From positions 83,808 to 147,807 of the forward strand of contig NZ_CANMTE010000006.1 in assembly GCF_947500795.1 (NCBI RefSeq): a stretch of 64,000 bases of DNA, read 5' to 3'. Each line of letters begins with the position of its first letter. Within the stretch, counting starts at the first letter, position 1. Both the position numbers and the translations under genes were made by a program. Origin of the DNA: an uncultured Gelidibacter sp. (lineage in GTDB: Bacteria; Bacteroidota; Bacteroidia; Flavobacteriales; Flavobacteriaceae). This document shows positions 31,170 through 60,616 of the stretch, piece by piece. The notes beneath the pieces are model-generated. The model was given only the letters and a program-made list of their open reading frames with translations, was not told the DNA's origin and searched no databases.

Positions 31170-31440
31170 ATTCTATTAATTTATGGGTTATTTTTTAAAA
31201 TACAATCCACGGTCGTGGCTATGCGCAGTTGCATGCTCTAAGTTTGTTTCTTCCAAATATACACAAACCGCAGAAAATCCCGAGAGGAATCTACGGATGA
31301 GCGATGACCTAGCAATCGCATATTGCTCCTGTGTGTGCCTTGAATGGAAAATACATTACAAAAAGGTATAGTGCAAGTCTACGATGAAGCCATTGCAATC
31401 ATTCCTTAGGACACCAGTACTAATAAAATAATAAGCTGCA

Positions 31441-43624: not shown

Positions 43625-44677
43625 ATGTATATCACAATTACACCTCAAAAAATGGGTGGCAATTATTCTAAAAGTTCGGCTGATTTTGTTGGCTATCTGG
43701 AGAAGGAAAATCAAGGATTGGAACAGCAGGACCTGCCTGCCGGACAGGCAGGTATGGAGCATTTCTTTAACCAAGATGGCGACGAGATTTCAGCAGAGGA
43801 AGTGGTCAGGGAAATAGACGGCAATACTGCAAAACTTGAAAAACACGAACCACGGTTTTATTCTATTACCGTAAGCCCTTCAAAATACGAACTGAAACGT
43901 TTGCAGAACCATAGTGAGGATTTGCAAAAATACACCCGTGAGATTATGAAGGATTATGTGTCTTCATTCAATCGTGAAATCAATGGACGACCAATAACCA
44001 TAGACGACATAAAATATTATGCAAAAATTGAACACCAAAGAACCTTCAAAGGCACGGACTTTCAGATAAAGGAAAACCAACCGTATGCTACAAAAATACT
44101 TCAACTAAAAACTGAAATCCGAAATGTGCAAGATGGACGAGCAGAAGGAAATGTGAAAAAATTGGAAAAAGAAATTGGGAAACTCGAAAGAGAAGCCCCG
44201 CACCAACAGAACGGAAAACGAATCGTACAAGGAATGCCAAAAGCAGGAAACCAAAGTCATATCCATATTATTGTGAGCCGTAAGGATGCTTCCAATAAAT
44301 TCAGTTTGTCCCCAGGAAGTAAATACAAAGCTTCCGATGTTGAATTAAATGGTAAAACGGTAAAACGGGGATTTGATAGAGATGGATTTTTCACAAAAGC
44401 AGAAAAGACTTTTGACAAGAATTTTGGCTATAAAAGAAACTTCGCAGAAACCTATAAGGCTAGAAAGGATTTCATCAAGAATCCTAAAATCTATTTTGCG
44501 TCACTAATGAAACTGCCCCCCAACGAAAAAGCATTGGCGTTCAAAATAATGGGGAAAAGTGGCATCCCGATGATGCCGAGTATTCCTGTTACACAGGCAC
44601 AATTGGCGATGAAAATTTTTAATAGGCTGCGTCGTGGTGCGGAAGTGGCCATCAAATCGAGTTCCATCGGAATCTAA
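43625..44677 (+). CDS. DUF5712-family relaxase / mobilisation protein (BfmB/BtgB type)
   Basis: 350 residues. The N-terminus MYITITPQKMGGNYSKSSAD is diagnostic. Later come RFYSITVSPSKYEL, IKYYAKIEHQRTFKG and a HIHIIVSRKD histidine-containing strand (about 216-225) expected at the relaxase active site. A palindromic repeat inserted in frame adds roughly seven residues (LPAGQAG) after NQGLEQQ; the rest of the frame is intact. It starts 11 bp after the bfmA-like gene. Confidence 0.82.
   Translation: MYITITPQKMGGNYSKSSADFVGYLEKENQGLEQQDLPAGQAGMEHFFNQDGDEISAEEVVREIDGNTAKLEKHEPRFYSITVSPSKYELKRLQNHSEDLQKYTREIMKDYVSSFNREINGRPITIDDIKYYAKIEHQRTFKGTDFQIKENQPYATKILQLKTEIRNVQDGRAEGNVKKLEKEIGKLEREAPHQQNGKRIVQGMPKAGNQSHIHIIVSRKDASNKFSLSPGSKYKASDVELNGKTVKRGFDRDGFFTKAEKTFDKNFGYKRNFAETYKARKDFIKNPKIYFASLMKLPPNEKALAFKIMGKSGIPMMPSIPVTQAQLAMKIFNRLRRGAEVAIKSSSIGI
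43731..43753. repeat. Palindromic repeat inserted in frame in the relaxase gene
   Basis: ACCTGCCTG (43731-43739), CCGGA, CAGGCAGGT (43745-43753): a perfect 9-bp stem. It encodes the extra LPAGQAG stretch. The same family of repeat lies before ssb at 41558. Confidence 0.7.
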
Positions 44678-44686
44678 TTTAAAATT

Positions 44687-46267
44687 ATGCAAATGGACAA
44701 TTTCGTAACGGTACTTTTTATTATTGGTTTGGCCAGTAGTGTTTTCTATGGAATATTTAGGATAAGTAGATATGCATTTGTCGTCAATCTTCTATTGGTT
44801 GGCACTCTTGTATATTATTTAAATGAACAATTACCATTGGTGCAAGTAGCACTTTATTTTGTTTGTCCTCTGATATTAATTAATATAGGAATGTATGTAT
44901 TCTTGCATAAAACGGACAAGCTAAAAAATGGAAATGCCAAATATCAGGTCAATTTTGCCACGACAAAAGGAAAATTTAAATTGGATAACATTAAACGTGG
45001 TGCATCCGTCATCGGGTCTGCCGGAAGCGGAAAGACCGAGAGTGTTGTGTACGGATTTCTGAAACACTTCCAAAAAGAAGGTTTTTGCGGAATTATCCAC
45101 GATTACAAAGATTTTGAATTGACCGAAATGGCGTATCCACTGTTTAAGGACAGCGATATCCCATTTAAGGTCATTTCCTTCGATAAAATCATCCATAGGG
45201 TAAATCCTATTGCGCCACGCTATTTAGAGAACGAGGAAAGCGTAAACGAGGTGTCAAGGGTATTGATTGAAAACCTATTGGAGCAACGGGAAAGCGGAAC
45301 CTCTGGAACAACAAAATTTTTTAATGATGCTGCGGAAGGCTTGATTGGTGGCCTGATCTGGAAACTAAAAACCACCTATCCACAATTCTGTACGCTTCCA
45401 CATTTGATTGCTATTTACCAATACTTGGACACGGACAGCCTGATCAAGTTTTTGGAGACGAATACGACATCGAGGGCAATGGCAGATGCGTTTATTAGTG
45501 GGAAGGATTCGGAGCGGCAGACGGCAGGGGTCAAAAGTACCTTGGCTAATGCGCTGAAGCGAATCAGCACACAACGCATTTTCATGGCATTATCTGAAGA
45601 TGAAGTGCCGCTCAATATAAATAGTCCAGAAAATCCAACTGTAATTTCGATCGTAAACAACCCCAAATTTGAAACCTCATATTCGCCAGTTATCGCTACC
45701 ATTATCCACACCATAACCAAGCAGATGAGCGTTCGGAATTCAAAGCCTTCATTTTTATTAATGGAAGAGGCGCCAACCATACGATTATTGAATATGCACC
45801 GCATTCCGGCAACACTTCGAAGCTATGATATTTCAACAATTTACGTGATGCAGGACAAGATTCAAAACGATATGATGTATGGGGATAAAGCAAGTAAAGC
45901 GATATTAAGCAATCTTTCCTATCAATTTTTTGGTAAAGTCAATGATCCTGACACCGCCAAATATTACGAACGGTTCTTTGAGATTATCAAAGACCCAACT
46001 AAAAGTGTGAGTCGGGGCTATAATCTTGACTTTGATACGCGTGTTACTACGGGAGAAAAGGAAATACCAAAAATTAGGGCTGATGTTTTCTTCAGATTGA
46101 AGCAAGGCGAGTTTGTTACCTATGCGGACGGTAAGGACAGGAGGGTGCAGTTTAAGTTGCAGAAAATACATAGGGAGTTTCCAACAGCCATAAAGGAGTT
46201 TTCCAAAGCCGAATTAGAAGTTAATTTTGAGCGGATTTATGGGGAGGCGAGGTCCCTTTTTGGATAG
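44687..46267 (+). CDS. TraG/VirD4-type conjugative coupling protein
   Basis: 526 residues: three membrane segments in the first 75 residues, then an ATPase with Walker A GSAGSGKTES (about 108-117), Walker B-like SFLLMEEAP and the downstream STIYVMQD motif. It should hand the relaxase-DNA complex to a type IV secretion channel. Apart from a traN remnant, no secretion-channel genes are in this window, so transfer would need a helper or genes elsewhere. Confidence 0.85.
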   Translation: MQMDNFVTVLFIIGLASSVFYGIFRISRYAFVVNLLLVGTLVYYLNEQLPLVQVALYFVCPLILINIGMYVFLHKTDKLKNGNAKYQVNFATTKGKFKLDNIKRGASVIGSAGSGKTESVVYGFLKHFQKEGFCGIIHDYKDFELTEMAYPLFKDSDIPFKVISFDKIIHRVNPIAPRYLENEESVNEVSRVLIENLLEQRESGTSGTTKFFNDAAEGLIGGLIWKLKTTYPQFCTLPHLIAIYQYLDTDSLIKFLETNTTSRAMADAFISGKDSERQTAGVKSTLANALKRISTQRIFMALSEDEVPLNINSPENPTVISIVNNPKFETSYSPVIATIIHTITKQMSVRNSKPSFLLMEEAPTIRLLNMHRIPATLRSYDISTIYVMQDKIQNDMMYGDKASKAILSNLSYQFFGKVNDPDTAKYYERFFEIIKDPTKSVSRGYNLDFDTRVTTGEKEIPKIRADVFFRLKQGEFVTYADGKDRRVQFKLQKIHREFPTAIKEFSKAELEVNFERIYGEARSLFG

Positions 46268-46358: not shown

Positions 46359-47222
46359 CTAAGGCGAAGTATTCTCAAATTTAATTTTTTCTATTAAATC
46401 CTTGAAATATTCGGGACTCCAAATATTTAAGACAGCATCGTTTGGGATGAACTTAACAACATCTTCTTTAATATTGTTAAAGGAAACCGATTTGATCTTG
46501 GCGTCCAATAGCCCTATAATCTGTTCATTAGTAATGCTGTCGTCTAGCCAGTCCTTAGTGTCTTTTGCTCTGGTTAAGAAATGATTTACATCCAAAGGGA
46601 TTCCCTTTTTGATGTACCATTCCAGATCATACCAATCCCTTCCTTTGACCCTGTTCAGCCATTTTCTAAATAGCAGGGCATGCATTTTGCCTGCGAACAA
46701 ACTTGGTTGCGTAAAGCATTTCACATAAAAGGAAAATGGGCGGAGCACTAACTTTTCTTCGGTTTTGAAATTTAATGGAGGCTGTCGGTCAACTTCTATT
46801 TTTATCTTTAAGGTCTTGTTGGAGCGCACCCCGGTTTCTTTGATGATATCTTCGAGCACAATTTCTTGCCATATTGTTTCGGCTTTCAGAAAAGCAGAGT
46901 CAATAGCTGTTTGTCTTGTTTTTTTCTTCTCCCTAATGCTAACCGTCAGACCCAATGCCTTAAATTCATCTATAACGGCTATGAAATAGGGCTCAATTGA
47001 AAAATTCGGATCAGGTTTAAGTAAAGAAAAATCCAAATCTTCTGAATACCTATCCAGTCCATAAAAAATCCGGAGAGCGGTTCCTCCATAAAAAGCTGCT
47101 TTCTCAAAAAAATCAGTTCTTGATAGGCCTGCCAAAGTGATTTCTTGCATTATTTCCCGTAATGCAGATAGTATTTCCTCTTCATTTTTAGGGTTATATT
47201 CTTCGATCCATTCTTTTATCAT
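46359..47222 (-). CDS. AbiEii-type nucleotidyltransferase toxin
   Basis: 287 residues of the AbiEii/AbiGii family. The nucleotidyltransferase motif is GGTALRIFYG followed by RYSEDLDFSL (residues about 46-68), with further family blocks KIKIEVDRQPP and KGRDWYDLEWY. It overlaps the upstream gene by 4 bp. AbiE systems are type IV toxin-antitoxin pairs; the toxin blocks growth upon phage infection. Confidence 0.9.
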   Translation of the reverse strand: MIKEWIEEYNPKNEEEILSALREIMQEITLAGLSRTDFFEKAAFYGGTALRIFYGLDRYSEDLDFSLLKPDPNFSIEPYFIAVIDEFKALGLTVSIREKKKTRQTAIDSAFLKAETIWQEIVLEDIIKETGVRSNKTLKIKIEVDRQPPLNFKTEEKLVLRPFSFYVKCFTQPSLFAGKMHALLFRKWLNRVKGRDWYDLEWYIKKGIPLDVNHFLTRAKDTKDWLDDSITNEQIIGLLDAKIKSVSFNNIKEDVVKFIPNDAVLNIWSPEYFKDLIEKIKFENTSP

Positions 47223-49811: not shown

Positions 49812-50027
49812 AGAAAAGCCTGTGACTCCAAAGTATTGAAAAAGATAAAAAGACAAAATTTATTAAGGGTTCCATTCAGCAAAATCTTTAAGTGCTTTAA
49901 TTTTAGAATTGAAACAATAAGATGGTCATAAACATCCTCACTAAACATTAAAAAATTTGGATGATGAAATCATACCGGTAGTTCTTTTATTATTAACTTT
50001 TCGTAATATGAAGAATTAATGTTTTAA

Positions 50028-50381
50028 TCACCTCTTTCGTACAATCAGGATCTCATCATCAGAAAACTCCATCCAGGCTATGTCATATAAATAAAAGAAT
50101 GTTTTGCCCTTTGAATTTATATGGAAATGGGTATGGTACTTAAAGCGGAACCCTTTCTTCTCCAATAGATTTCTATATACTTTTAGCTGTATTTTGTTTT
50201 TGCCCAATACCTCCAATAGAATCGAGTAATTACGTTTTAAGTAGCCATTGATTTCTATCGCGGCGACCTTAGAGGCATAGCGAAGCTTTTTGTGGTATAT
50301 ATTTTTACAGTGTGTTGAGCAATATATCTTATCTGATCGGCCTTTGATCGGTTTTGCACATATTTTACATGTATGATCCAT
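50028..50381 (-). CDS. Zinc-ribbon protein divergent from the integron-like integrase
   Basis: Starting at the second ATG (50381) gives 117 residues; the longer start at 50414 adds 11. The N-terminus has a zinc-binding pattern Cys5-x2-Cys8 ... Cys21-x3-Cys25 (KICAKP, YCSTHC). The C-terminal half has a GFRFKYHTHFHINSKG motif and YLYDIAWMEF. I associate proteins of this type with flavobacterial integrases and think they may be a regulator or recombination accessory; this is unproven. It is divergently placed 128 bp from the integrase start. Confidence 0.65.
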   Translation of the reverse strand: MDHTCKICAKPIKGRSDKIYCSTHCKNIYHKKLRYASKVAAIEINGYLKRNYSILLEVLGKNKIQLKVYRNLLEKKGFRFKYHTHFHINSKGKTFFYLYDIAWMEFSDDEILIVRKR

Positions 50382-50509
50382 ATAATCCGTTGTTATATAG
50401 GTAAATATACGCAATCGTTCCTAACGGATAAATACGTTTAATATCGTTTACAATGCTATTTGTGTTATCCAATTTCTTTAAATTTGGATACATCTCAAAA
50501 AAATCTATA

Positions 50510-51646
50510 ATGGAAAGGAAGGATAGAGCCCAGATTATCATTTACCTCCCCCAGGTCAAAGCTGGTCGGATCAAGCTAAGGATTCCATACGAAATGACTG
50601 AGGAACGTGAGGCTTTTAAGAAACTCAACGGCACTTTTTACCATTTCCATCAAAGGCTGTGGAGCATTGTCAATACCGAAGAAAATGTAAAAAGGTTGGA
50701 AACGCTTTTTGGCGAGAAACTACTCAGACAAAGTACAGAAGCTCCTACTGTCATTCCACAAACGGAGATTTCGGAAGCAACTCAGGCAGAATTGGACCGG
50801 AATCACCAAAAAATGATTCTTAAAGGTTTTAGCCAGGCTACCATACGTAATTATCAGAGTAATTTGATTCAGTTCTTTCAGTATTTCGAATCGGTTGCAT
50901 ACCGAGAGATAACCAAGGAACAGATAGAAGGTTTTGTATATTACCTTATCAACAAGTACAATATAAGTGAGCAAAAGCAAAATCAGCTCATAAATGCCAT
51001 AAAATGCTATTATGAACACACTTTGGGAATGCCTCGTGAGTATTACAATATTACAAGACCCACCAAGAGCAAAGATCTGCCAGATGTATTAAGTAAGCAA
51101 GAGGTGGCTGCTATTATAAACTGCCCGAGCAATATAAAGCATAAAGCCATACTTCATGTTCTTTATGGCGCCGGTCTTCGGGTGGGCGAAGTGGTACGTT
51201 TACGGGTGGCGGACGTTCGTAGCCAAGACGGTTATCTTTTCATTAAAGACTCTAAAGGCAAGAAGGACAGGCATACTACCCTAAGTCCTTTTCTATTGGA
51301 TCTTTTACGGAAATACTATCGGGAGCACAAGCCTAGCTATTGGTTGTTTGAAGGACAGAACGGGGGTCAATATACCGCACAGAGCATCCAACGTATTTAT
51401 CGGAAGGCTGTAAAAGACACTAAAAGCAATCCATGGAGTACGCCCCATACCTTACGTCATAGCTATGCTACACATCTTATGGAGCAAGGTGTAAATATCC
51501 GTTATATTCAGAGCTCATTGGGGCATTCCAGCACTAAAACTACTGAGGTTTATACTCGGGTTGTAGGAATAAACAACAAAACTTTAACAAGTCCCTTGGA
51601 TTCTTTGTATGAATCAGGTACATTTGAGAAAGATAAATTAAAATAG
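50510..51646 (+). CDS. Integron-integrase-like tyrosine recombinase (IntI/Xer type)
   Basis: The ATG at 50510 (MERKDRAQ) gives 378 residues; an upstream ATG (50453) is less likely. Layout: an extra N-terminal domain of about 85 residues (RIKLRIPYEM, YHFHQRLWSIVN), a SAM-like core-binding domain, and a catalytic domain with all residues: Arg224 (YGAGLRVGE), His313 and Arg316 (HTLRH), His339 (LGHSS), Tyr348 (VYTRV). The C-terminus TSPLDSL matches the end of integron integrases. The region between boxes I and II is too short for the IntI-specific insert. It lies 5' of, and in the same direction as, the cassette array at 51707-54793. Confidence 0.88.
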   Translation: MERKDRAQIIIYLPQVKAGRIKLRIPYEMTEEREAFKKLNGTFYHFHQRLWSIVNTEENVKRLETLFGEKLLRQSTEAPTVIPQTEISEATQAELDRNHQKMILKGFSQATIRNYQSNLIQFFQYFESVAYREITKEQIEGFVYYLINKYNISEQKQNQLINAIKCYYEHTLGMPREYYNITRPTKSKDLPDVLSKQEVAAIINCPSNIKHKAILHVLYGAGLRVGEVVRLRVADVRSQDGYLFIKDSKGKKDRHTTLSPFLLDLLRKYYREHKPSYWLFEGQNGGQYTAQSIQRIYRKAVKDTKSNPWSTPHTLRHSYATHLMEQGVNIRYIQSSLGHSSTKTTEVYTRVVGINNKTLTSPLDSLYESGTFEKDKLK

Positions 51647-51706
51647 CATGGTGTACATAGGTGATATATACGTCACTCCTAAGGTCATATGTTATATATA
51701 CACATG
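51647..51706 (+). other. attI-like site between integrase and first cassette
   Basis: 60 bp between the integrase stop and the G of the first G|TT junction (51706). It contains an imperfect inverted repeat (CATGGTGTACATA near 51648-51660 and TATATACACATG near 51695-51706) that could bind the recombinase. The function is inferred from position. Confidence 0.5.
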
Positions 51707-51850
51707 TTGGCGGTAATTTGAAGAAACAATTAACAACGAAAAACATTCAAGAAAATGAAGCTATAAGTAACTGTAAGATAGAATAAGAATTGAAATATCC
51801 TTTAATACGCAAAGTAGAAAGGGCGATTGTTAATATTAAAAAATTAGAAA

Positions 51851-52621
51851 ATGACACAGTTACAAATGATTGACAAAACAAAGTCAATAGCTCAAAATGA
51901 TAAAAATATTTCTGCCGTATTTATGTACGGGTCATTTACCAAAAATGAAGGGGACAAATATTCAGATATTGAATTCTACATCTTCTTGAAGGATAAAGAA
52001 AATTTTTCCGCTGAAAATTGGGTAAGCCAAATTCATCCTTTGGCATTATATTTTACCAACGAGTATGGAAGTGAAGTTGCCATTTTTGAAAATATGATAA
52101 GGGGGGAGTTTCATTTTTTGACAAACGACCAAATGGAAGTTATCAAATCGTGGGACGGTTTGGTAGAGTTTAGCGACTTTGACAAGATGATTTTAGTAGA
52201 TAAAGAAGATTTATTGACTAACACGCTCAAAGAAATAAAAACTAAAGTACCTGATCGAACAACAAATGAAAATATCCTGTGGTTGAGCCAATCATTGTTG
52301 AATGTTTTACTTACAACAAGCAACTTAATTAAACGACAGGAATTTGCTCACGCTTACCAAAGCTTATCAAATGTTCAAAAATATTTACTTTGGTTAATAA
52401 GAATTGAAACATACCAAACCAAACATTGGGAAAGTCCAACAAAAAGCTTGGAAAAAGACATAGACCCAGATTGGTATTCGTTATTTCAGGAGACAACATC
52501 AGAATTAGATCCGACAGATATTAAAACAGCTTTCAAGAAGACATTAACATTGACTGAAAAACTTTTTGATAATCTTGGAGTTGAAGCAAAATTAAAGGGG
52601 GTATTAAGGAGAATTGAATAA
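51851..52621 (+). CDS. Lincosamide nucleotidyltransferase-like protein (Lnu(F)/(G)/(H) group)
   Basis: 256 residues. The polymerase-beta-like nucleotidyltransferase motif MYGSFTKNEGDKYSDIEFYI (residues 25-44) has Gly27-Ser28 and Asp39-x-Glu41. The continuing EYGSEVAIFENMIRGEFHFL block resembles the LinF/LnuF and Riemerella LnuH proteins. Such enzymes adenylylate lincomycin and clindamycin. lnu(F) is known as an integron cassette gene, which fits its place in cassette 1. The exact substrate is not proven. The 145-bp leader inside the cassette is long enough for its own promoter. Confidence 0.75.
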   Translation: MTQLQMIDKTKSIAQNDKNISAVFMYGSFTKNEGDKYSDIEFYIFLKDKENFSAENWVSQIHPLALYFTNEYGSEVAIFENMIRGEFHFLTNDQMEVIKSWDGLVEFSDFDKMILVDKEDLLTNTLKEIKTKVPDRTTNENILWLSQSLLNVLLTTSNLIKRQEFAHAYQSLSNVQKYLLWLIRIETYQTKHWESPTKSLEKDIDPDWYSLFQETTSELDPTDIKTAFKKTLTLTEKLFDNLGVEAKLKGVLRRIE

Positions 52622-52628
52622 AAAAAAC

Positions 52629-52766
52629 TACCGCCAACATTGTATAAGCGTAATGCGGGCTGAACTGCTAAATTTGAGCATTTTTGCTCCTAAGAAACTT
52701 TGTGGTGGGCGGACAGTGAATTGCTCCGAAATCCCGCACTACGCTTATACTTGACCGTTGTACGAC
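52629..52766 (+). repeat. attC-like recombination site 1
   Basis: It opens with TACCGCCAAC (52629-52638), complementary to the cassette 1 start (51706-51715), and ends with GTTGTACGAC (52757-52766). Inner arms GTATAAGCGTAATGCGGG (52642-52659) and 52733-52750 pair at 17 of 18 positions. The one defect, A52653-C52739, becomes a T-G wobble on the bottom strand. The loop is about 70 bases. Confidence 0.8.
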
Positions 52767-52789
52767 ATAGTAAAACCGAACCAAACAAA

Positions 52790-53653
52790 ATGAAAGTCAG
52801 AGAAGAAAAGTTAAGAACAATTATAGAATGGTCGGAGAAAAACGAAGATGTAAGAGTTCTTCTTCTGACAAGTTCACTTGTAAATCCTTTAGCACTTGTT
52901 GACGAATTTAGTGATTTAGACATTGAATTTGTTTTTGAGGATAATACAAATTACATTTCAGACAAAAGCTGGACGCTTAAATTCGGAAATCCAATTGCTA
53001 TGATTGAAGAAGACGAAAGTTGTTTTAACCATAAACACGCAATGAAAATGCTACTTTATGAAGACGGTGTGAAAGTAGATTTTAAACTTTACAGCAAATC
53101 AAAATTTATAAAGGAAACGCAAGAGAAAGAATTACCAGAAGATTGGGATATTGGTTATAAAATTTTAATTGATAAAGATGGTATTACAAAGCAAATGCTG
53201 AAACCAACTTATCAAATTTCCATTATCAAAAAACCGTCTGAAAAAGAGTTTCAAAATCTAATAAACGATTTTTGGTGGGACACAACTTACGTGGCAAAGT
53301 GTCTTGTGAGAGATGAAATATTCTATGCGAAATTTATGTCGGAAACCGTTATTCGCACAGAATATTTAATTCCTTTAATTGAATGGCACATTGCAAGTGA
53401 ACACAATTGGAACATAACGACCAATAAATATGGACGGCTTTTCAAAAAGTATCTTAACCAGGAAATGTGGGCTAAAACAGAACAAACATTTTCAGGGAGC
53501 GATATAAAGGAAAATTGGACTGCTCTATTTTCAATGACTGATTTAGTTTCAGAAATAGGAACTGAATTGTCAAAAAAATTAGAGTACAAATACCCGGATA
53601 AATTAGAAAATGACATACGAAAATATTTAGCTGGACTAAAACCCAAAACATAA
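52790..53653 (+). CDS. aadS: Aminoglycoside 6-adenylyltransferase, AadS-like
   Basis: The frame is open from 52700, but the part before 52790 runs through attC-like site 1, so ATG 52790 is the start. This gives 287 residues, the length of AadS. The nucleotidyltransferase motif is LLTSSLVNP ... DEFSDLDIEF (residues 25-47, Asp42-x-Asp44). The VKVDFKLYSK-like block and CLVRDEIFYAKFM-EWHIASEHNWN region match the ANT(6) family. It would adenylylate streptomycin. It fills cassette 2 with a 32-bp leader. Confidence 0.85.
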   Translation: MKVREEKLRTIIEWSEKNEDVRVLLLTSSLVNPLALVDEFSDLDIEFVFEDNTNYISDKSWTLKFGNPIAMIEEDESCFNHKHAMKMLLYEDGVKVDFKLYSKSKFIKETQEKELPEDWDIGYKILIDKDGITKQMLKPTYQISIIKKPSEKEFQNLINDFWWDTTYVAKCLVRDEIFYAKFMSETVIRTEYLIPLIEWHIASEHNWNITTNKYGRLFKKYLNQEMWAKTEQTFSGSDIKENWTALFSMTDLVSEIGTELSKKLEYKYPDKLENDIRKYLAGLKPKT

Positions 53654-53800
53654 CTACGTCGTACAACATCGTATTGGCAATAGGCGGGCTGAACGGCTTC
53701 GTATCAACGGAAGTGCAAAATTCAACTTCTGTTCTTCGATTAAAGTTCAGTGCTAAAAATCCCGCCCATCGCCAATACGCGGCACGTTGTGCGCAATATT
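53654..53800 (+). repeat. attC-like recombination site 2
   Basis: It opens with CTACGTCGTACAAC (53654-53667), complementary at 13 of 14 positions to the cassette 2 start (52757-52770). It ends with GTTGTGCGCAATATT (53786-53800). Inner arms 53671-53688 and 53761-53778 pair at 16 of 18. All three defects are A-C on this strand, hence T-G on the other. Confidence 0.8.
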
Positions 53801-54143
53801 AGAAGCGCGGTATCAAAAAGAAGTTTCGGTCTGAAAAATCAAAATTTTGACCTGAATTTAACTTTCTAAAACTGAATAAAATCTGAAATTTTTTGCGCTG
53901 ATCTTCCTAAATCCTGAAAAAAAATTTTTACGAAAAACTTACGGATTTGAGTATCAAAAATTGTGCTTGACTTTTACAAATTTTGCGCTTAACTGCATGA
54001 ATAAAGTCTGCGTGAATACTTTTCCAAAATTCGTGAATAAAATTCTGAAAATCTTTGCGATTTCGTGCGTGAAAAAAATTGTTGTGCTTGATTTTCACTT
54101 CTCTGACTGAATTCAACAGGTTGAATTAAGTCGCCGAACTAAA
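53801..54143 (+). other. Cassette 3 body, no convincing ORF
   Basis: About 340 bp of low-complexity AT-rich DNA full of short CTGAA/TGAAT words and runs of A and T. The only ORF (62 residues, minus strand) is basic and unlike a known protein. It may be a non-coding or regulatory cassette, or a decayed gene. Confidence 0.5.
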
Positions 54144-54356
54144 AATACTGCGCACAACATGGGCTTGGCAAAAGCGGGGCGGAGAGTTATCATTTAGAAG
54201 ATTTCAGCACTTTTCGCCGCAAAAAACCATTTCGTTTTTTTATTTTTTATAATTTTGAAAAAACGAAAATGGTTTTTGCTCGGTTCGGGTTTAGTTGGAA
54301 TTTCCGTCTATCTTATCCCCGCCTTCGCCAAGCCCTTTCCCGTTGTGCGCAATATT
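54144..54356 (+). repeat. attC-like recombination site 3 (longest)
   Basis: It opens with AATACTGCGCACAAC (54144-54158), pairing at 14 of 15 with the cassette 3 start. It ends with GTTGTGCGCAATATT (54342-54356). Arms 54161-54179 and 54317-54335 pair at 17 of 19. The long loop carries an extra hairpin (AAAAACCATTTCG / CGAAAATGGTTTTT, about 54225-54280). All defects are A-C on this strand. Confidence 0.8.
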
Positions 54357-54660
54357 ACCGCCGCGACTTTCAAACAAAATTTATGAGATTTTTTTAACTC
54401 TGAACTGACTTTTTGCTGGCTGAATTCTGAATCTGAATTTACCTTTGGAAAAATAACCGCACTGAGGATTGCCGCTTAAAAAACCGCACTGACTTTTCCA
54501 AAACTACTGATCTGACTCCCCTACTTTGCACTTAGCGTCCTGGATTAAACTTTTGAAAACTATTTCTGCTAAAACAAAAATGCAAAACTGCACGAATTCA
54601 CTATCTTTTTAACTGTCTGACTGACTTTTAAAAGCACTAAAAACTCCCTTGAAATTAAAA
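54357..54660 (+). other. Cassette 4 body, no convincing ORF
   Basis: 300 bp without ORF of useful length. It shares with cassette 3 the abundant CTGAA/CTGACT words and identical boundary sequence, so the two may be related or one a derivative of the other. Confidence 0.5.
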
Positions 54661-54806
54661 AATACTGCGCACAACACGGTATTTCTGTTAGCGGGATTGA
54701 AGTTTACATCATAAAGATTTTCGCGAGTTGTTCTTTTTGTTATATTTACAAAAACTAATTATAATAAGACCCGCCAACAGAAATACCCAACCGTTGTGTT
54801 TCATGC
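54661..54806 (+). repeat. attC-like recombination site 4
   Basis: It opens with AATACTGCGCACAAC (54661-54675), pairing at 14 of 15 with the cassette 4 start (54342-54356). It ends with GTTGTGTTTCATGC (54793-54806). Arms GGTATTTCTGTTAGCGGG (54678-54695) and 54770-54787 pair at 17 of 18 with one A-C defect. A partner GCATGAAACACAAC for the next cassette is not in the window. Confidence 0.78.
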
Positions 54807-54993: not shown

Positions 54994-55188
54994 ATGAACC
55001 GAATAAAGGAAGTACTCGAACAGAAAGGGATTAAGCAAACTTGGTTAGCTGAGAAACTTGGAAAGAGCTACAACATGGTTAATGGCTATGTTCAGAATAG
55101 ACAGCAACCGAGATTGGAAGTGCTTTTTGAAATAGCAAAAATCCTTGAAGTTGACCCTAAAGAATTAATTGAGTCGGATAATGGATAA
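54994..55188 (+). CDS. XRE-type controller of the restriction operon
   Basis: 64 residues that are essentially one Cro/C1 HTH ([40 protein letters not shown]). Its stop overlaps the hsdR start (ATGGATAA), so it is the first gene of the operon. A controller role in delaying restriction is inferred from location. Confidence 0.8.
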
Positions 55189-57544
55189 AAAGAAACTAAC
55201 GGAACGTGACATATGCACAAAGTACATCACTCCTGCTTTAGAAAAAGCTGGATGGGATACGCATATTCAGTTACGTGAGGAATTTCCATTGACCAATGGT
55301 AGAATAATTGTTCGAGGACAACTGCATACCAGAGCAAAGAATAAAAGAGCTGATTATGCTTTGTTTTATAAGCCAGGGATTCCAATTGCCATAATTGAAG
55401 CAAAAGACAATAATCATACTGTTGCAGCTGGAATGCAGCAAGGACTTAAATATGGTGAAATGCTCAATGTTCCCTTTGTATTTAGTTCAAATGGAGACGG
55501 CTTCTTATTTCATAACAGTATCGCTAAAGATGGAAAGGTGGAAACCGAAATTACATTGGATGAATTTCCATCACCAGAATTTTTATGGAATTTATGGAGA
55601 GAGAATAAAAATTTAACTCCCGTACAAGAGACCATAATCACACAAGATTATTATAGTGACGGTGGTAATAAAACACCAAGATATTATCAATTACTAGCCA
55701 TAAATAAAACGATAGAAGCTATCGCCAATGGCAATGATAGAATATTGCTTGTTATGGCTACAGGCACAGGAAAGACCTTTACTGCATTTCAAATAATTTG
55801 GAGATTATGGAAATCAAAAGCTAAAAAGAGAATCTTATTCCTAGCAGACAGGAACATTCTTGTTGACCAAACCATAACAAATGACTTTAAGCCTTTTGGT
55901 TCAGCAATGACCAAAATTTCAAAAAGACAAGCCAATAAGTCTTATGAAATTTACCTTTCACTTTACCAAGCTGTTTCAGGAACAGAAGAAGAGCAAAACA
56001 TTTATAAGCAGTTTTCTCCTGATTTTTTTGACCTAATTGTTATAGACGAATGTCACAGAGGAAGTGCGGCAGAGGATTCAAATTGGCGAAGAATCTTAGA
56101 ATACTTTTCTAACGCCACCCAAATTGGTTTAACAGCTACTCCTAAAGAAACCAAAGACGTTTCTAATACAGATTATTTTGGTGACCCTATTTACACTTAT
56201 TCTCTTAGACAAGGAATAGATGATGGATTTCTCGCTCCTTATAAAGTTGTTAGAATAGACATTGATAAAGATGTGACTGGATGGCGACCTGATAAAGGAA
56301 TGCTGGATAAATATGGTAATGAAATTGAAGATAGAGTTTATAATCAAAAGGATTTTGACAAAACCCTAGTCTTAGATAAAAGGACACAACTTGTAGCAAA
56401 AAAAATATCTGACTTTTTAAGGCAAACAAATCGCTTTGATAAAACAATTGTCTTCTGTGATAATATTGACCATGCTGAAAGAATGCGACAAGCATTGGTA
56501 AACGAGAACAGTGATCTAGCTGCCGATAATTCAAGATATGTTGTGCGCATCACTGGCGACAACGAGGAAGGAAAACTTGAACTAGATAATTTCATTTTTC
56601 CAGAATCTAAATATCCCGTGATTGCAACAACTTCAAAATTGATGACTACAGGAGTTGATGCTCAAACTTGTAAGTTGATTGTACTTGATCAACGTATTCA
56701 ATCAATGACGGAGTTCAAACAAATTATTGGCAGAGGAACAAGAATTAATGAAGATTTTAACAAGTTCTATTTTACGATAATGGACTTCAAAAAGGCAACA
56801 GAATTATTTGCTGACCCTGATTTTGACGGTGATCCTGTAGTTGTTTACACTCCAAAAACGGGAGAATCACCTGTTCCTCCTGACGACTTAGTTAGTCCTG
56901 ATGCAAATCAACCATTTGATTTCACAACAAATGATGATTTTGATTTCTCAGATTTTGAATATTCTGAAGGAGAAACACAAAAAGTCAAAAAGTACTATGT
57001 AGCAGATGTACCTGTTTCAGTGGTTGCAGAGCGTGTACAATATTTTGATGCTGATGGTAAACTAATAACAGAGTCCTTAAAAGATTACACTAAAAAAACC
57101 TTATCAAAGGAATTTTCTTCTCTTGATGATTTTTTAAAGAAGTGGTCGGATTCAGATAAGAAAAAAGCAATAATTACAGCATTAGAAGCGGAAGGTGTTT
57201 TTTTTGATGCTTTAGCCGAAGAAATCGGAAAAGACCTTGACCCCTTTGATATTATTTGCCATGTGGCGTGGGATATGCCTCCATTGACACGAAAAGAAAG
57301 AGCTTATCAAGTAAAGAAGAGAAATTACTTTACCAAATATGGCGAACAAGCTCAAAATGTTATAAACGCCTTACTCGAAAAGTATGCAGATGAAGGTGTC
57401 GTGCATATTGAAGAGACTAAGATTTTAACTATTCAGCCTTTTACTGAATTCGGGACTCCATTGGAAATCATTAAGAGATTTGGTGGATTAGCTAAATATG
57501 AAGAGGCTATAAAAGAACTAGAACAAGCAATTTATACTGCATAA
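55181..57544 (+). CDS. hsdR: Type I restriction endonuclease subunit R (EcoEI-like)
   Basis: The ATG at 55181 gives 787 residues; the longer frame starts 12 bp earlier without a better context. Order: an N-terminal nuclease domain with [20 protein letters not shown] (D ... ExK), a helicase with Walker [16 protein letters not shown]-like IDECHRGS, motif [11 protein letters not shown] and motif [12 protein letters not shown], and a C-terminal EcoEI_R-type region. It cuts unmodified DNA after translocation, together with HsdM and HsdS. Confidence 0.93.
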
Positions 57545-57555
57545 AAAACTAAAAT

Positions 57556-59004
57556 ATGTCATTAAGCACATTAATAAAAACTATACAAGATATAATGAGA
57601 AAAGACGTTGGTGTTGACGGAGACGCACAACGTATTAGCCAGATGGTTTGGCTTCTATTTCTCAAAATATTTGACGATAAAGAGAAGGAATGGGAAGTAA
57701 CAAATAGTAACTACAAATCCCCCCTACCTAATAGATTTAAATGGTCCACTTGGGCTGCAAATGATGAAGGAGATACGGGCGAAGAATTAATCGATTTTGT
57801 GAATAATGATTTATTTCCAGCTTTAAAGAAACTATCGAATACTGCGGGAGTATCACCACATGGAAAAGTGATTGGAAGTGTATTTGAGGATGCCTACAAC
57901 TACATGAAATCAGGAACTTTGCTGAGACAAGTAATCAATACGATTCAAGGTGATGTTGATTTTAATTCTTCTTCCGATAGACACCTATTCAATGACATTT
58001 ACGAGAAAATATTAAGCGATCTGCAATCTGCTGGAAATGCAGGTGAGTACTACACTCCAAGAGCAGTTACTCAATTTATGGTTGATATTTTAAATCCTCA
58101 ATTGGGTGAAAAAGTATTTGACCCAGCTTGTGGAACTGGTGGTTTTTTAGCTAATGTAATTGAACATAAAAAAAAGCAATTTAAAACCCCAGATGATATT
58201 GCCAAACTTCAGGAGAACATTCTAGGAATTGAAAAAAAACCGCTTCCCCATATGTTGGCTATGACCAATATGATGCTGCACGGTATTGATGTTCCTTCAA
58301 ACATTCGGCATGACAATACTTTAAGCCGTCCTCTAAAAGATTATGGCCCAAAAGATCGTGTAGATGTAATAATAACCAACCCTCCTTTTGGTGGTGTTGA
58401 AGAAGACGGAATTGAAAAGAATTTCCCAAAAAAATACCAGACTAGAGAAACTGCCGATTTATTTATGGCACTTATCATGCACCTTTTAAAACCAAATACA
58501 GGTAGAGCGGCAGTGGTACTTCCTGATGGATTTTTATTTGGCGAAGGTGTAAAAACAAATCTTAAGAGAGAATTATTAAACGAATTTAATCTTCATACAA
58601 TTGTACGATTACCAAAAGGTGTTTTTAGCCCATATACAGGGATTACCACAAACATATTGTTCTTTGAAAAAGGTGAACCGACTAAAAATGTCTGGTTCTT
58701 TGAGCATCCTTATCCTGAAGGATACAAATCCTACTCTCGAGGAAAGCCATTACGCATAGAGGAATTTGATTTAGAGAAAAAGTGGTGGAGAAAGCGTGTT
58801 CAAAATGAATATGCTTGGAAAGTTTCAATTAAAGAAATTGTAGCCAAAAATTACAACCTCGATTTTAAAAACCCGCATTTTGTTGATGAAGTTCATTTAG
58901 ATCCCGAAAAATTAATGCTTCAATTCGAAGACATTAGCAAAAGGCTAAATGAAACGAGAGAGCTTTTAAAAAAGGAATTAATGTTAGCTATTGAAAAACA
59001 TTAG
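57556..59004 (+). CDS. hsdM: Type I restriction-modification methyltransferase subunit M
   Basis: 482 residues: HsdM N-terminal domain (SLSTLIKTIQDIMRKDVGVD) and N6-adenine methyltransferase with the GEYYTPRAVTQFMV element, motif I DPACGTGGFL (about 196-205) and motif IV NPPF (about 278). It starts 11 bp after hsdR. Confidence 0.95.
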   Translation: MSLSTLIKTIQDIMRKDVGVDGDAQRISQMVWLLFLKIFDDKEKEWEVTNSNYKSPLPNRFKWSTWAANDEGDTGEELIDFVNNDLFPALKKLSNTAGVSPHGKVIGSVFEDAYNYMKSGTLLRQVINTIQGDVDFNSSSDRHLFNDIYEKILSDLQSAGNAGEYYTPRAVTQFMVDILNPQLGEKVFDPACGTGGFLANVIEHKKKQFKTPDDIAKLQENILGIEKKPLPHMLAMTNMMLHGIDVPSNIRHDNTLSRPLKDYGPKDRVDVIITNPPFGGVEEDGIEKNFPKKYQTRETADLFMALIMHLLKPNTGRAAVVLPDGFLFGEGVKTNLKRELLNEFNLHTIVRLPKGVFSPYTGITTNILFFEKGEPTKNVWFFEHPYPEGYKSYSRGKPLRIEEFDLEKKWWRKRVQNEYAWKVSIKEIVAKNYNLDFKNPHFVDEVHLDPEKLMLQFEDISKRLNETRELLKKELMLAIEKH

Positions 59005-59005
59005 G

Positions 59006-60616
59006 ATGGAGTTATTAGAACAACATTTTCAAATAGCATTAGAATCTCCTGATGGGATCACAAAACTTCGTGAACTAGTCTTGAAATTAGCTATGTCGGG
59101 TAAACTTGCAAACCAACCGGATAATGGTGATTCCACAAATGACTTATTACTCGAATTAAAAGTTCTCAAGCAAAATTTAACTAAAAAAGATTTTGCGCCA
59201 AGAAATATTGCCAAATCTAATTTTGAAGAGTCATATTCTATACCAAGTAATTGGGTTTGGACATCACTCGAAACTTTGGGAATATTTATCAATGGTGATC
59301 GAGGAAAAAATTATCCTTCCAAGAAAGATTATGTGGAAAATGGCATTCCATTTATTAATGCTGGTCATTTAGATAATGGAATAGTCCAATTACGAGAAAT
59401 GAACTACATTTCTGAGACTAGTTATGATAAACTCGGTGGCGGAAAAATTGAAGAAAATGATATCCTGTATTGTTTAAGGGGATCACTAGGAAAGTGTGCA
59501 ATCACTAGGAATATCAAAAAAGGAGCGATTGCTTCTTCCCTAGTTATAATTAGACCATTGATAAGCGACATGAGCTTATTCTTATATTATTACCTCATTA
59601 GTCCATTAGGGAAAAGCATGATTTATAAATATGATAATGGTACTGCACAACCTAACCTATCATCAGCAAATATTCAAAAATTTATTATTCCCTTGCCACC
59701 TTTAGAAGAGCAAAAAAGGATAGTTGCCAAGATTGAGGAATTATTGAGCCTTTGCAATCAGCTTGAAAAGCAAAGGAATTCCAAAAATGAAATATTATCA
59801 AAATTTAATGACTCAACTCTTAATAAATTAATTAAAGCTGATGATGAAAGTTCATTTGGAAAAGCTGCTAATTATTTAAAAGATAAATTCAATGAGCTTT
59901 ACTCCTCAGAGTCTAATGTTAAAAGTTTAAAAAAGGCAATTTTAAATCTTGGAATCTCAGGTAAATTTAAAATTGCCTCTAATGGTTCAAAACATGATAA
60001 AAAATACCCTACGATACCAGAAAAGGAAGAGCCTTTTAAGTTACCTACAAATTGGATTTGGACGAGACTTGACACTTTAGGTGAAACCCAAACTGGCACA
60101 ACTCCACCTAAAAAGAATCCAGAATATTATGGTGATTACATTCCATTTCTAGGTCCTGGAGATATAAAAGACTTTAAAATAGACTATTCCAATAACGGTC
60201 TTTCAGAATTAGGTAAGGAAAAAGCCCGCTTTATTCCTGCCAATTCTATTTTAATGGTTTGTATTGGTGGGAGTATTGGCAAAATGGCTATTAATGACCG
60301 TGATGTAACTTGTAATCAACAAGTAAACACCATTACGCCATATGAAGGAGTCCATTTAAATTACTTATCAGCTGTAATGCAATCAGATTACTTTCAAACT
60401 AAAATTTTGGCGAATGCAGGTGGTTCCGCAACACCAATAATCAATAAAGGGAAATGGATCTCAATCCCGATTCCTTTACCGCCTCTTGATATTCAAATTG
60501 AAATTTCAGATAAAATAGAAAAGCTATTAAGCCTTTGTAATTCACTTGAAAATTCTATTGGTCAAGTATCTAAAAAGCAAGTTCAAATCCTTAACTCCGT
60601 TCTGGCAAATATTTAG
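59006..60616 (+). CDS. hsdS: Type I restriction-modification specificity subunit S
   Basis: The ATG at 59006, one base after the hsdM stop, gives 536 residues. Two target-recognition domains (about 70-250 and 345-530) each end in a PLPPLEEQKRIV or PLPPLDIQIEIS motif followed by a helical spacer, the standard HsdS plan. It fixes the bipartite recognition sequence. Confidence 0.93.
   Translation: MELLEQHFQIALESPDGITKLRELVLKLAMSGKLANQPDNGDSTNDLLLELKVLKQNLTKKDFAPRNIAKSNFEESYSIPSNWVWTSLETLGIFINGDRGKNYPSKKDYVENGIPFINAGHLDNGIVQLREMNYISETSYDKLGGGKIEENDILYCLRGSLGKCAITRNIKKGAIASSLVIIRPLISDMSLFLYYYLISPLGKSMIYKYDNGTAQPNLSSANIQKFIIPLPPLEEQKRIVAKIEELLSLCNQLEKQRNSKNEILSKFNDSTLNKLIKADDESSFGKAANYLKDKFNELYSSESNVKSLKKAILNLGISGKFKIASNGSKHDKKYPTIPEKEEPFKLPTNWIWTRLDTLGETQTGTTPPKKNPEYYGDYIPFLGPGDIKDFKIDYSNNGLSELGKEKARFIPANSILMVCIGGSIGKMAINDRDVTCNQQVNTITPYEGVHLNYLSAVMQSDYFQTKILANAGGSATPIINKGKWISIPIPLPPLDIQIEISDKIEKLLSLCNSLENSIGQVSKKQVQILNSVLANI

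Follow-up and report, generated by a model that had tools for sequence, protein, structure and literature searches.

Can gene cassettes be captured by a tyrosine recombinase that lacks the domain by which integron integrases are known? The question is raised by positions 50014-54793 of a 64-kb stretch of a Gelidibacter sp. contig (hereafter the window, meaning the whole stretch of DNA analyzed), in which a platform (50014-51706) is followed by an array (51707-54793). Integrons are the textbook gene-capture device, and their integrase, IntI, is defined by one extra domain. The platform is composed, in this order, of a divergent zinc-finger gene, a gene encoding a tyrosine recombinase of 378 amino acid residues, and an attI site, after which come four cassettes with attC-like palindromes. 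The locus is very probably an integron-like platform, whose recombinase, devoid of the IntI-specific domain, is predicted to act at attI, inserting and excising gene cassettes via folded single strands of the attC-like sites. From the comparisons given below, the platform is predicted to capture genes and pass them on much as integrons do. A sequence-only reading of the same DNA had proposed an integron-like capture system in a flavobacterium, and this proposal is strongly supported: the attI is conserved up to its G|TT end, arrays lie beside homologous integrases, the R' and R'' boxes of one and the same cassette pair with each other, and cassettes occur elsewhere with exact ends.

Cassettes and attC-like sites of the window

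All cassettes and sites of the array lie on the forward strand, with G|TT junctions at 51706|51707, 52757|52758, 53786|53787, 54342|54343, and 54793|54794. Cassette 1 (51707-52757) contains a lincosamide nucleotidyltransferase-like gene (51851-52621; NCBIfam LnuH 453.5 bits, cut-off 540) and an attC-like site at 52629-52763. Cassette 2 (52758-53786) carries aadS, encoding an aminoglycoside 6-adenylyltransferase (52790-53653; NCBIfam ANT_6_aadS 518.6 bits, above the cut-off of 450), and a site at 53658-53792. Both resistance-type cassettes were probably captured from a Weeksellaceae-type cassette pool. Cassettes 3 (53787-54342; site at 54149-54348, 186 bp from AAC to GTT) and 4 (54343-54793; site at 54666-54799) have no open frame, their longest ATG frames being of 37 and 10 amino acid residues, respectively. 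Both are rich in CTGA on the cassette strand (9 vs 2.6 and 11 vs 4.2 expected, respectively; 0 of 500 shuffles each), and six of the seven CTGA-richest among 89 cassettes examined are likewise without an ATG frame of 70 residues. Further CTGA-rich frameless cassettes were seen in L160 (5219 and 12910), L153 (4789), and L011 (14845).

The sites share the form AAC-A, stem, five to seven unpaired bases, and G|TT, and every cassette starts at G|TT. An AAC..stem..GTT detector, which was shaped on these four sites, found them with scores of 20.1-22.2 (22.2 for the third), the next best match elsewhere in the window scoring 16.1; five dinucleotide shuffles of the window (one strand) gave a single match of at least 17. 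The long imperfect palindromes that the sequence-only reading described between G|TT-bounded segments are real and well above background. A covariance model, R1, was built from 30 sites in other genomes, none of them from the window or the plasmids discussed below; it recovered the sites of cassettes 1, 2, and 4 (E values of 1.3e-7, 4.7e-4, and 5.1e-9, respectively). At gathering scores, Rfam returned only one tRNA in the whole window. At 31221-31323 on the reverse strand (R1 39.5 bits, model positions 15-116) lies a degenerate stem of the attC-like kind that lacks the AAC and GTT boxes and is likely to be a relic.

The first 10 bases of each of the four cassettes are complementary to its own R'' box in 10 of 10 positions, and the first 15 bases in 13, 14, 14, and 14 positions, respectively, in agreement with the counts reported before. 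It had also been remarked that the R' boxes deviate from the consensus GTTRRRY, and indeed none of the five fits it (GTTGGCG, GTTGTAC, GTTGTGC, GTTGTGC, and GTTGTGT); the R' boxes of other arrays are a mixture of GTTAGGC and GTTGTGC types.

The integrase lacks the IntI-specific domain

The integrase gene (50510-51646, forward strand) encodes a protein with conserved RKHRHY residues (the predicted catalytic tyrosine being Y348) and with matches to Pfam PF00589 (E 2e-37) and PF13495, assigned by the phylogenetic tree to lineage A of the integrases found with such arrays (the array family). The additional domain is what defines integron integrases, as stated in the consulted part of PMC9668308, which cites Messier and Roy. 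This domain, of about 42 residues, is absent from the window integrase, which is shorter than IntI4 (2a3v) by about 43 residues at this point; the TLS-to-TPH spacing is 51-52 residues in the aligned array-family proteins vs 93 in all 12 true IntIs. The protein falls below every NCBIfam cut-off. The integron-integrase model TIGR02249 gives 188 bits, in two pieces, against a cut-off of 265, and the XerD and XerC models give 166.5 (cut-off 329.6) and 158.6 (cut-off 335.15), respectively, the Xer cut-offs being strict (own XerD-like L003, 329.5/329.6; own XerC-like L004, 298.3/335.15). In a tree with only two Xer rows and an unresolved backbone, the array family clusters with IntI and apart from XerC/XerD.

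The identification of this protein as an IntI-type integrase, made from the sequence alone, was accordingly abandoned: the missing domain and the curated cut-offs rule it out. By sequence, the system is to be classed as integron-like and outside the IntI integrons; it is not filed among the latter because their defining domain is missing.

A second array-family integrase is encoded in the genome of the window (G000:C4:391434-397645, L076); it belongs to lineage E, is 39% identical to the first, and diverges from three attC-like sites. Alignments of lineage B integrases (e.g., G040, G080, and G098) to the window integrase often cross one stop codon, perhaps near the C-terminus. Relatives with a similar N-terminal region were also seen beyond Bacteroidota, in metagenome-assembled genomes of Clostridiaceae (L035) and Spirochaetes (L038), and no R1 sites were found in these two loci.

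attI and the limits of the conserved module

The attI (51647-51706, forward strand) is conserved from the integrase stop to ...TATATACACATG, with predicted cleavage at G|TT, 51706|51707. Common to the 26 platforms aligned is an AT-rich attI ending in ACATG or close variants, followed by the TT of the first cassette; the motif [CTAG][AG]TG|TT lies within about 150 bp of the integrase stop in all of them, with different DNA beyond (25 located by regular expression and L025 by eye; the junctions of L010 and L012, where the expression had picked an ATG|TT closer to the integrase, were likewise assigned by eye). Three Gelidibacter loci (L007, L008, and L030) are 95-96% identical in DNA to the window from 50014 onwards, the identity ending at 51709-51713, and a fourth (L009) is 79% identical up to 51708. 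The first cassette differs in each of five Gelidibacter-type genomes, so that the boundary does vary among relatives, a point on which the sequence-only reading had staked its proposal.

Upstream of about 50014, adjoining homology was absent in 11 of the 12 loci compared. The small divergent gene at 50028-50381, on which the sequence-only reading was silent and with which the conserved platform begins, is hence a part of the conserved module. The exception (L011, Aequorivita) shares the conjugation-type genes that precede the platform of the window. Zinc-finger gene, integrase, and attI ending in ACATG|TT are one module common to Gelidibacter and Aequorivita genomes, and the DNA beyond it mostly differs.

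Pairing of cassette ends and covariation of the stem

Pairing between the R' and R'' boxes of a single cassette is what would be expected of a unit that had formerly been circular, with its closure at attC. In 161 consecutive cassettes, the four bases that follow GTT pair 4/4 with the cassette's own R'' in 131 and with the adjoining upstream site in 11, with mean pairing of 3.57 and 1.65, respectively (shuffled mean 1.51, highest of 2000 shuffles 1.80). For this comparison 15 of 232 site matches were not entered (three duplicates and 12 mostly short or oddly bounded), and re-bounding succeeded for 209 of the others. A further set of 147 cassettes, which overlaps the first in part, shows pairing through base 14 and then a drop to background; the mismatch at base 11 is near-fixed (A opposite C in 111 of the 147). 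In true IntI arrays (L164-L167, 21 cassettes of one family, a small sample) pairing fades after about base 10, and their attC sites are, by eye, of a different sequence class.

The attC-like site is preserved by its fold, as its stem covaries across genomes. The covariation score of the R1 sites was 0.495 vs 0.130 in shuffled alignments (reached in 0 of 500) and at most 0.107 when the alignment was slid; 95.5% of the cells are paired, and compensatory change occurs in 7 of 12 pairs. Two other stem measures were matched by shuffles (both-sides-changed pairs in 44 of 500, pair types in 193 of 500). In addition to three window sites, R1 recovers sites on plasmids of Riemerella, Myroides, Bacteroides, and Empedobacter, and the genome of the window contains 17 R1 sites.

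Distribution of sites and integrases

The sequence-only reading had suggested searching other genomes for the same site class beside homologous integrases, and such arrays were found. R1, scoring at most 28 candidates per genome, matched 106 of 120 sampled genomes of the family Flavobacteriaceae, and an integrase at E<=1e-40 was detected in 84. Both were present in 82 genomes, sites alone in 24, the integrase alone in 2, and neither in 12 (odds ratio 20.5, Fisher p 7e-6). The neighborhoods of 40 integrases, each of 20 kb or as far as the contig reaches, contain 229 sites (232 matches minus three opposite-strand duplicates of stronger sites). Downstream of the integrase lie 220 of them, every one on its strand; of the nine upstream sites, one shares the strand of the integrase and eight are on the opposite strand. 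All of these eight belong to two lineage E platforms that are divergent like classical integrons. Four of the 40 loci are siteless, three of these integrases lying within 1 kb of a contig end. The training sites of R1 had been picked with the detector, and the linkage count itself used R1. Since some of the 120 genomes and 40 loci derive from the same organisms as the training loci (e.g., L079 equals L025 by integrase), these counts are not fully independent of training.

The distribution also bears on the alternative that survives best, albeit as a very improbable one, namely that these are attC clusters without a working integrase, their ordinary integron cassettes being moved in trans by a true IntI of another replicon, with the neighboring recombinase unrelated. 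True IntI does occur in the same phylum (TIGR02249 above its cut-off in 84 of 296 genomes), some such genomes are matched by R1, and the Riemerella-type array described below lies apart from its array-family integrase. However, no TIGR02249 match above the cut-off is present in the genome of the window, and the 86 TIGR02249-matching genomes include none of its family or order and one of its class. Nor does a foreign IntI account for 220 of 229 sites on one side and strand of non-IntI integrases, for an attI conserved to G|TT beside these integrases, or for the contrast with the L164-L167 arrays in attC class (by eye) and in pairing length, about 10 rather than 14 bases.

Cassettes on plasmids and gene uptake by Riemerella

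Cassette 1 is 99.9% identical to a segment of the Riemerella plasmid pRCAD0416RA-1 with the same ends, annotated there as Lnu(I), and cassette 2 (aadS) is 99.6-100% identical, with cassette-exact ends, to segments of one Empedobacter and two Bacteroides plasmids. In these plasmid copies the identity starts and stops at the G|TT boxes, and the flanks differ. In a congeneric genome (G729), cassette 1 is present at 99.8% identity along 1044 bp; the cassette after it is another one, and the left junction differs within the R' box. On two Myroides plasmids (L044 and L045) the aadS unit breaks off within its site, next to IS91-like transposase and integrase genes, as though truncated by a one-ended element.

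On pRCAD0416RA-1 (L041, L128), genes for blaOXA, tet(X), estT, and two phosphotransferases lie between or beside attC-like sites, and much of its resistance region may therefore be one cassette array. According to the consulted sections of a 2026 report (PMC13148043), aph(3')-IVb supplied to R. anatipestifer ATCC 11845 as genomic DNA or as a PCR fragment was integrated without homology into a locus containing relE, hthR, and cdf; the gene was consistently accompanied by 27 bp of its upstream and 140 bp of its downstream sequence. In these sections an attC-like fold is noted, the 100 kb around the recipient site are stated to contain no mobile element, no recombinase is named, the mechanism is left open, and the uptake is likened to that of lnu(H) and blaRATA. 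On the plasmid of RCAD0416, a strain named in the same sections, the points 27 bp before and 140 bp after the gene for an APH(3') of 262 residues both fall inside CCGTT, that is, to within one base, at the G|TT of a pair of attC-like sites.

Genome G716, probably R. anatipestifer, contains 100% copies of the relE-HTH cassette of this plasmid. Its first two 20-kb stretches are filled by 14 and 17 detector matches, nearly all attC-like, and relE-HTH and a CDF-type transporter gene are neighboring cassettes with a site between them. In L152, relE-HTH is followed by a CDF-type gene at 2.2-3.8 kb (called by sequence reading), and the published relE/hthR/cdf order is absent from the frames at 5.2-7.1 kb. 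G716 encodes one array-family integrase (lineage E, 362 residues), about half a megabase from the array and with an adjoining zinc-finger gene. We infer that an integrase of this family performed the published integration in R. anatipestifer.

That the cassettes are moved by housekeeping XerC/XerD in the manner of pdif modules, and not by the adjacent integrase, has still less to recommend it. Sites acted on in that manner are short and dif-like; those found here are covarying palindromes of 120-190 bp, attI and integrase are conserved together as one module, and the integrase family stands beside IntI in the tree, apart from the two Xer rows. Least credible of all is that the palindromes are terminators or scattered repeats of the REP/MITE type and the array-like look incidental, for although a palindromic stem closes every gene unit and the window contains a degenerate partial copy at another place, this leaves unexplained the own-cassette pairing in 131 of 161 cases, the single orientation relative to integrases, the exact G|TT ends of transferred units, and a published integration ending at the same point. 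Simple repeats or terminators were ruled out by orientation, pairing, and cassette-exact ends.

N-terminal domain, zinc-finger gene, and neighboring genes

In comparison with IntI, the integrase of the platform possesses an extra N-terminal domain (50534-50734, forward strand) with a predicted bb-a-bb-a-b order and a weak resemblance to the N-terminal domains of XPB and UvsW. HARP, XPB-DRD, and UvsW are grouped as fork-recognition-type domains. Pfam gave nothing credible for this domain at E<=10 (DUF6371, E 0.053).

The divergent small gene (50028-50381, reverse strand) encodes 117 residues with a treble-clef-like zinc finger (CxxC...CxxxC), whose CxxC and CxxxC ligands are retained in all 19 aligned proteins; its Pfam match to DUF2116 (E 0.0018) remains under the cut-off of that model. 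Of 90 integrase loci, 53 have the gene by tblastn, and in lineages A and B it is mostly divergent and no more than 0.3 kb away; none of 12 true IntI loci, which are short, has it. A motif search within 0.9 kb of the integrases lacking a tblastn match retrieved it in none of 36 loci. Matches at E<=1e-6 occur in 102 of the 120 family genomes, and a divergent copy lies within 1.5 kb of 39 of 98 integrase matches, a count for which 49 of the listed zinc-finger matches were entered by hand, mainly on contigs with integrase matches. The expectation that the gene is tied to integrases failed, most listed copies being elsewhere. It is a plausible candidate partner of the integrase.

The platform is preceded by conjugation-type genes (43625-46267) and an AbiEii-type gene (46359-47222). 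The array is directly followed, at 54994-60616, by genes for a small HTH protein and for a restriction-modification system of type I (hsdR, hsdM, and hsdS).

Proposed mechanism and points against it

In the proposed reaction, the integrase would cleave attI and one folded strand of attC, both at G|TT; the latter strand would be exchanged, and replication would resolve the product, as in integrons. Most likely, this would lead to attI x attC insertion from the folded strand and to attC x attC exchange within arrays. The N-terminal domain and, where present, the zinc-finger protein may grip the folded attC, replacing the role of the extra domain of IntI.

Several observations weigh against this interpretation. 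Excision, circle formation, and integration by the window integrase are predictions from the features described above. The fold search of the N-terminal domain returned weak, tied matches only and amounts to a lead. No zinc-finger gene was found near the nine lineage C integrases of the tree, and among the matches listed most zinc-finger genes lie away from integrases. R1 misses the third window site, of 186 bp. The sequence-only reading had regarded palindromes scattered without any link to integrases as fatal to its proposal; a link was found, but in 24 of the 120 genomes sites occur and no integrase reaches E<=1e-40, and in two others an integrase is present and no site was found. The L086 integrase is followed by 5.7 kb of DNA without a site, and in three Riemerella-type genomes (L151, L155, and L156) the integrase has no array within about 10 kb. 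Finally, at E<=1e-6, R1 matches 69 of 296 phylum genomes, some of them with true IntI, and the site class is therefore not strictly confined to array-family integrases.

Significance and comparison with known systems

Beyond this locus, we consider it likely that Bacteroidota run a second kind of integron. Its integrases would branch beside IntI, would never have had or would have lost the attC-gripping IntI domain, and would handle folded attC with an N-terminal domain resembling fork-recognition domains, joined in several lineages by a zinc-finger partner. Such a system would be present in most Flavobacteriaceae genera, invisible to IntI-based tools, and a natural source of the resistance cassettes of Bacteroidota (lnu, aadS, and likely blaOXA, tet(X), estT, and aph(3')). 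The kind of platform described here is widespread and has apparently been overlooked in the journal literature, preprints being outside the search. It would account for the movement of resistance genes as clean units between Riemerella, Empedobacter, Bacteroides, and environmental flavobacteria, and for the homology-free uptake of such genes by Riemerella. As the family appears to run the same reaction without the IntI domain, it offers a natural experiment on the purpose of that domain, which, if a second kind of integron does exist, would be dispensable for single-strand cassette recombination.

In the consulted part of the IntegronFinder 2.0 survey of RefSeq (PMC9024848), a single complete integron (Salinibacter ruber) is now listed for Bacteroidetes, which were earlier represented by bare IntI genes. 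Tools dependent on the IntI-specific domain are expected to see at most attC clusters in the arrays described here, which differ from such clusters in being headed by a non-IntI integrase and an attI. Archaeal-type XerA recombinases act on dif-like sites. In comparison with these proteins (NCBIfam NF040815; PDB 5hxy, 4a8e), cassette arrays with attC-like sites adjoin the gene in our case, and an N-terminal domain is added. The uptake of aph(3')-IVb by R. anatipestifer, as described in the consulted sections of PMC13148043, is alike in that its junctions fall on the G|TT of the same site class and its flanks match two neighboring cassettes; to that account the present analysis adds a candidate integrase family, an attI, and a family-wide distribution.

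With the IntI integrons, both class 1 and chromosomal, the system shares a tyrosine recombinase, an attI, tandem cassettes each with one attC-like palindrome, the G|TT crossover, R'/R'' pairing, a C-terminal SPLD-like tail, resistance cassettes, and long chromosomal arrays. It differs from them in an integrase without the IntI-specific domain and with an extra N-terminal domain, in a zinc-finger partner in part of the family, in cassettes that usually run in the direction of the integrase from its 3' end, in an R box that pairs over about 14 bases with a near-fixed A-C mismatch at position 11, and, in the window, in R' boxes that deviate from GTTRRRY.

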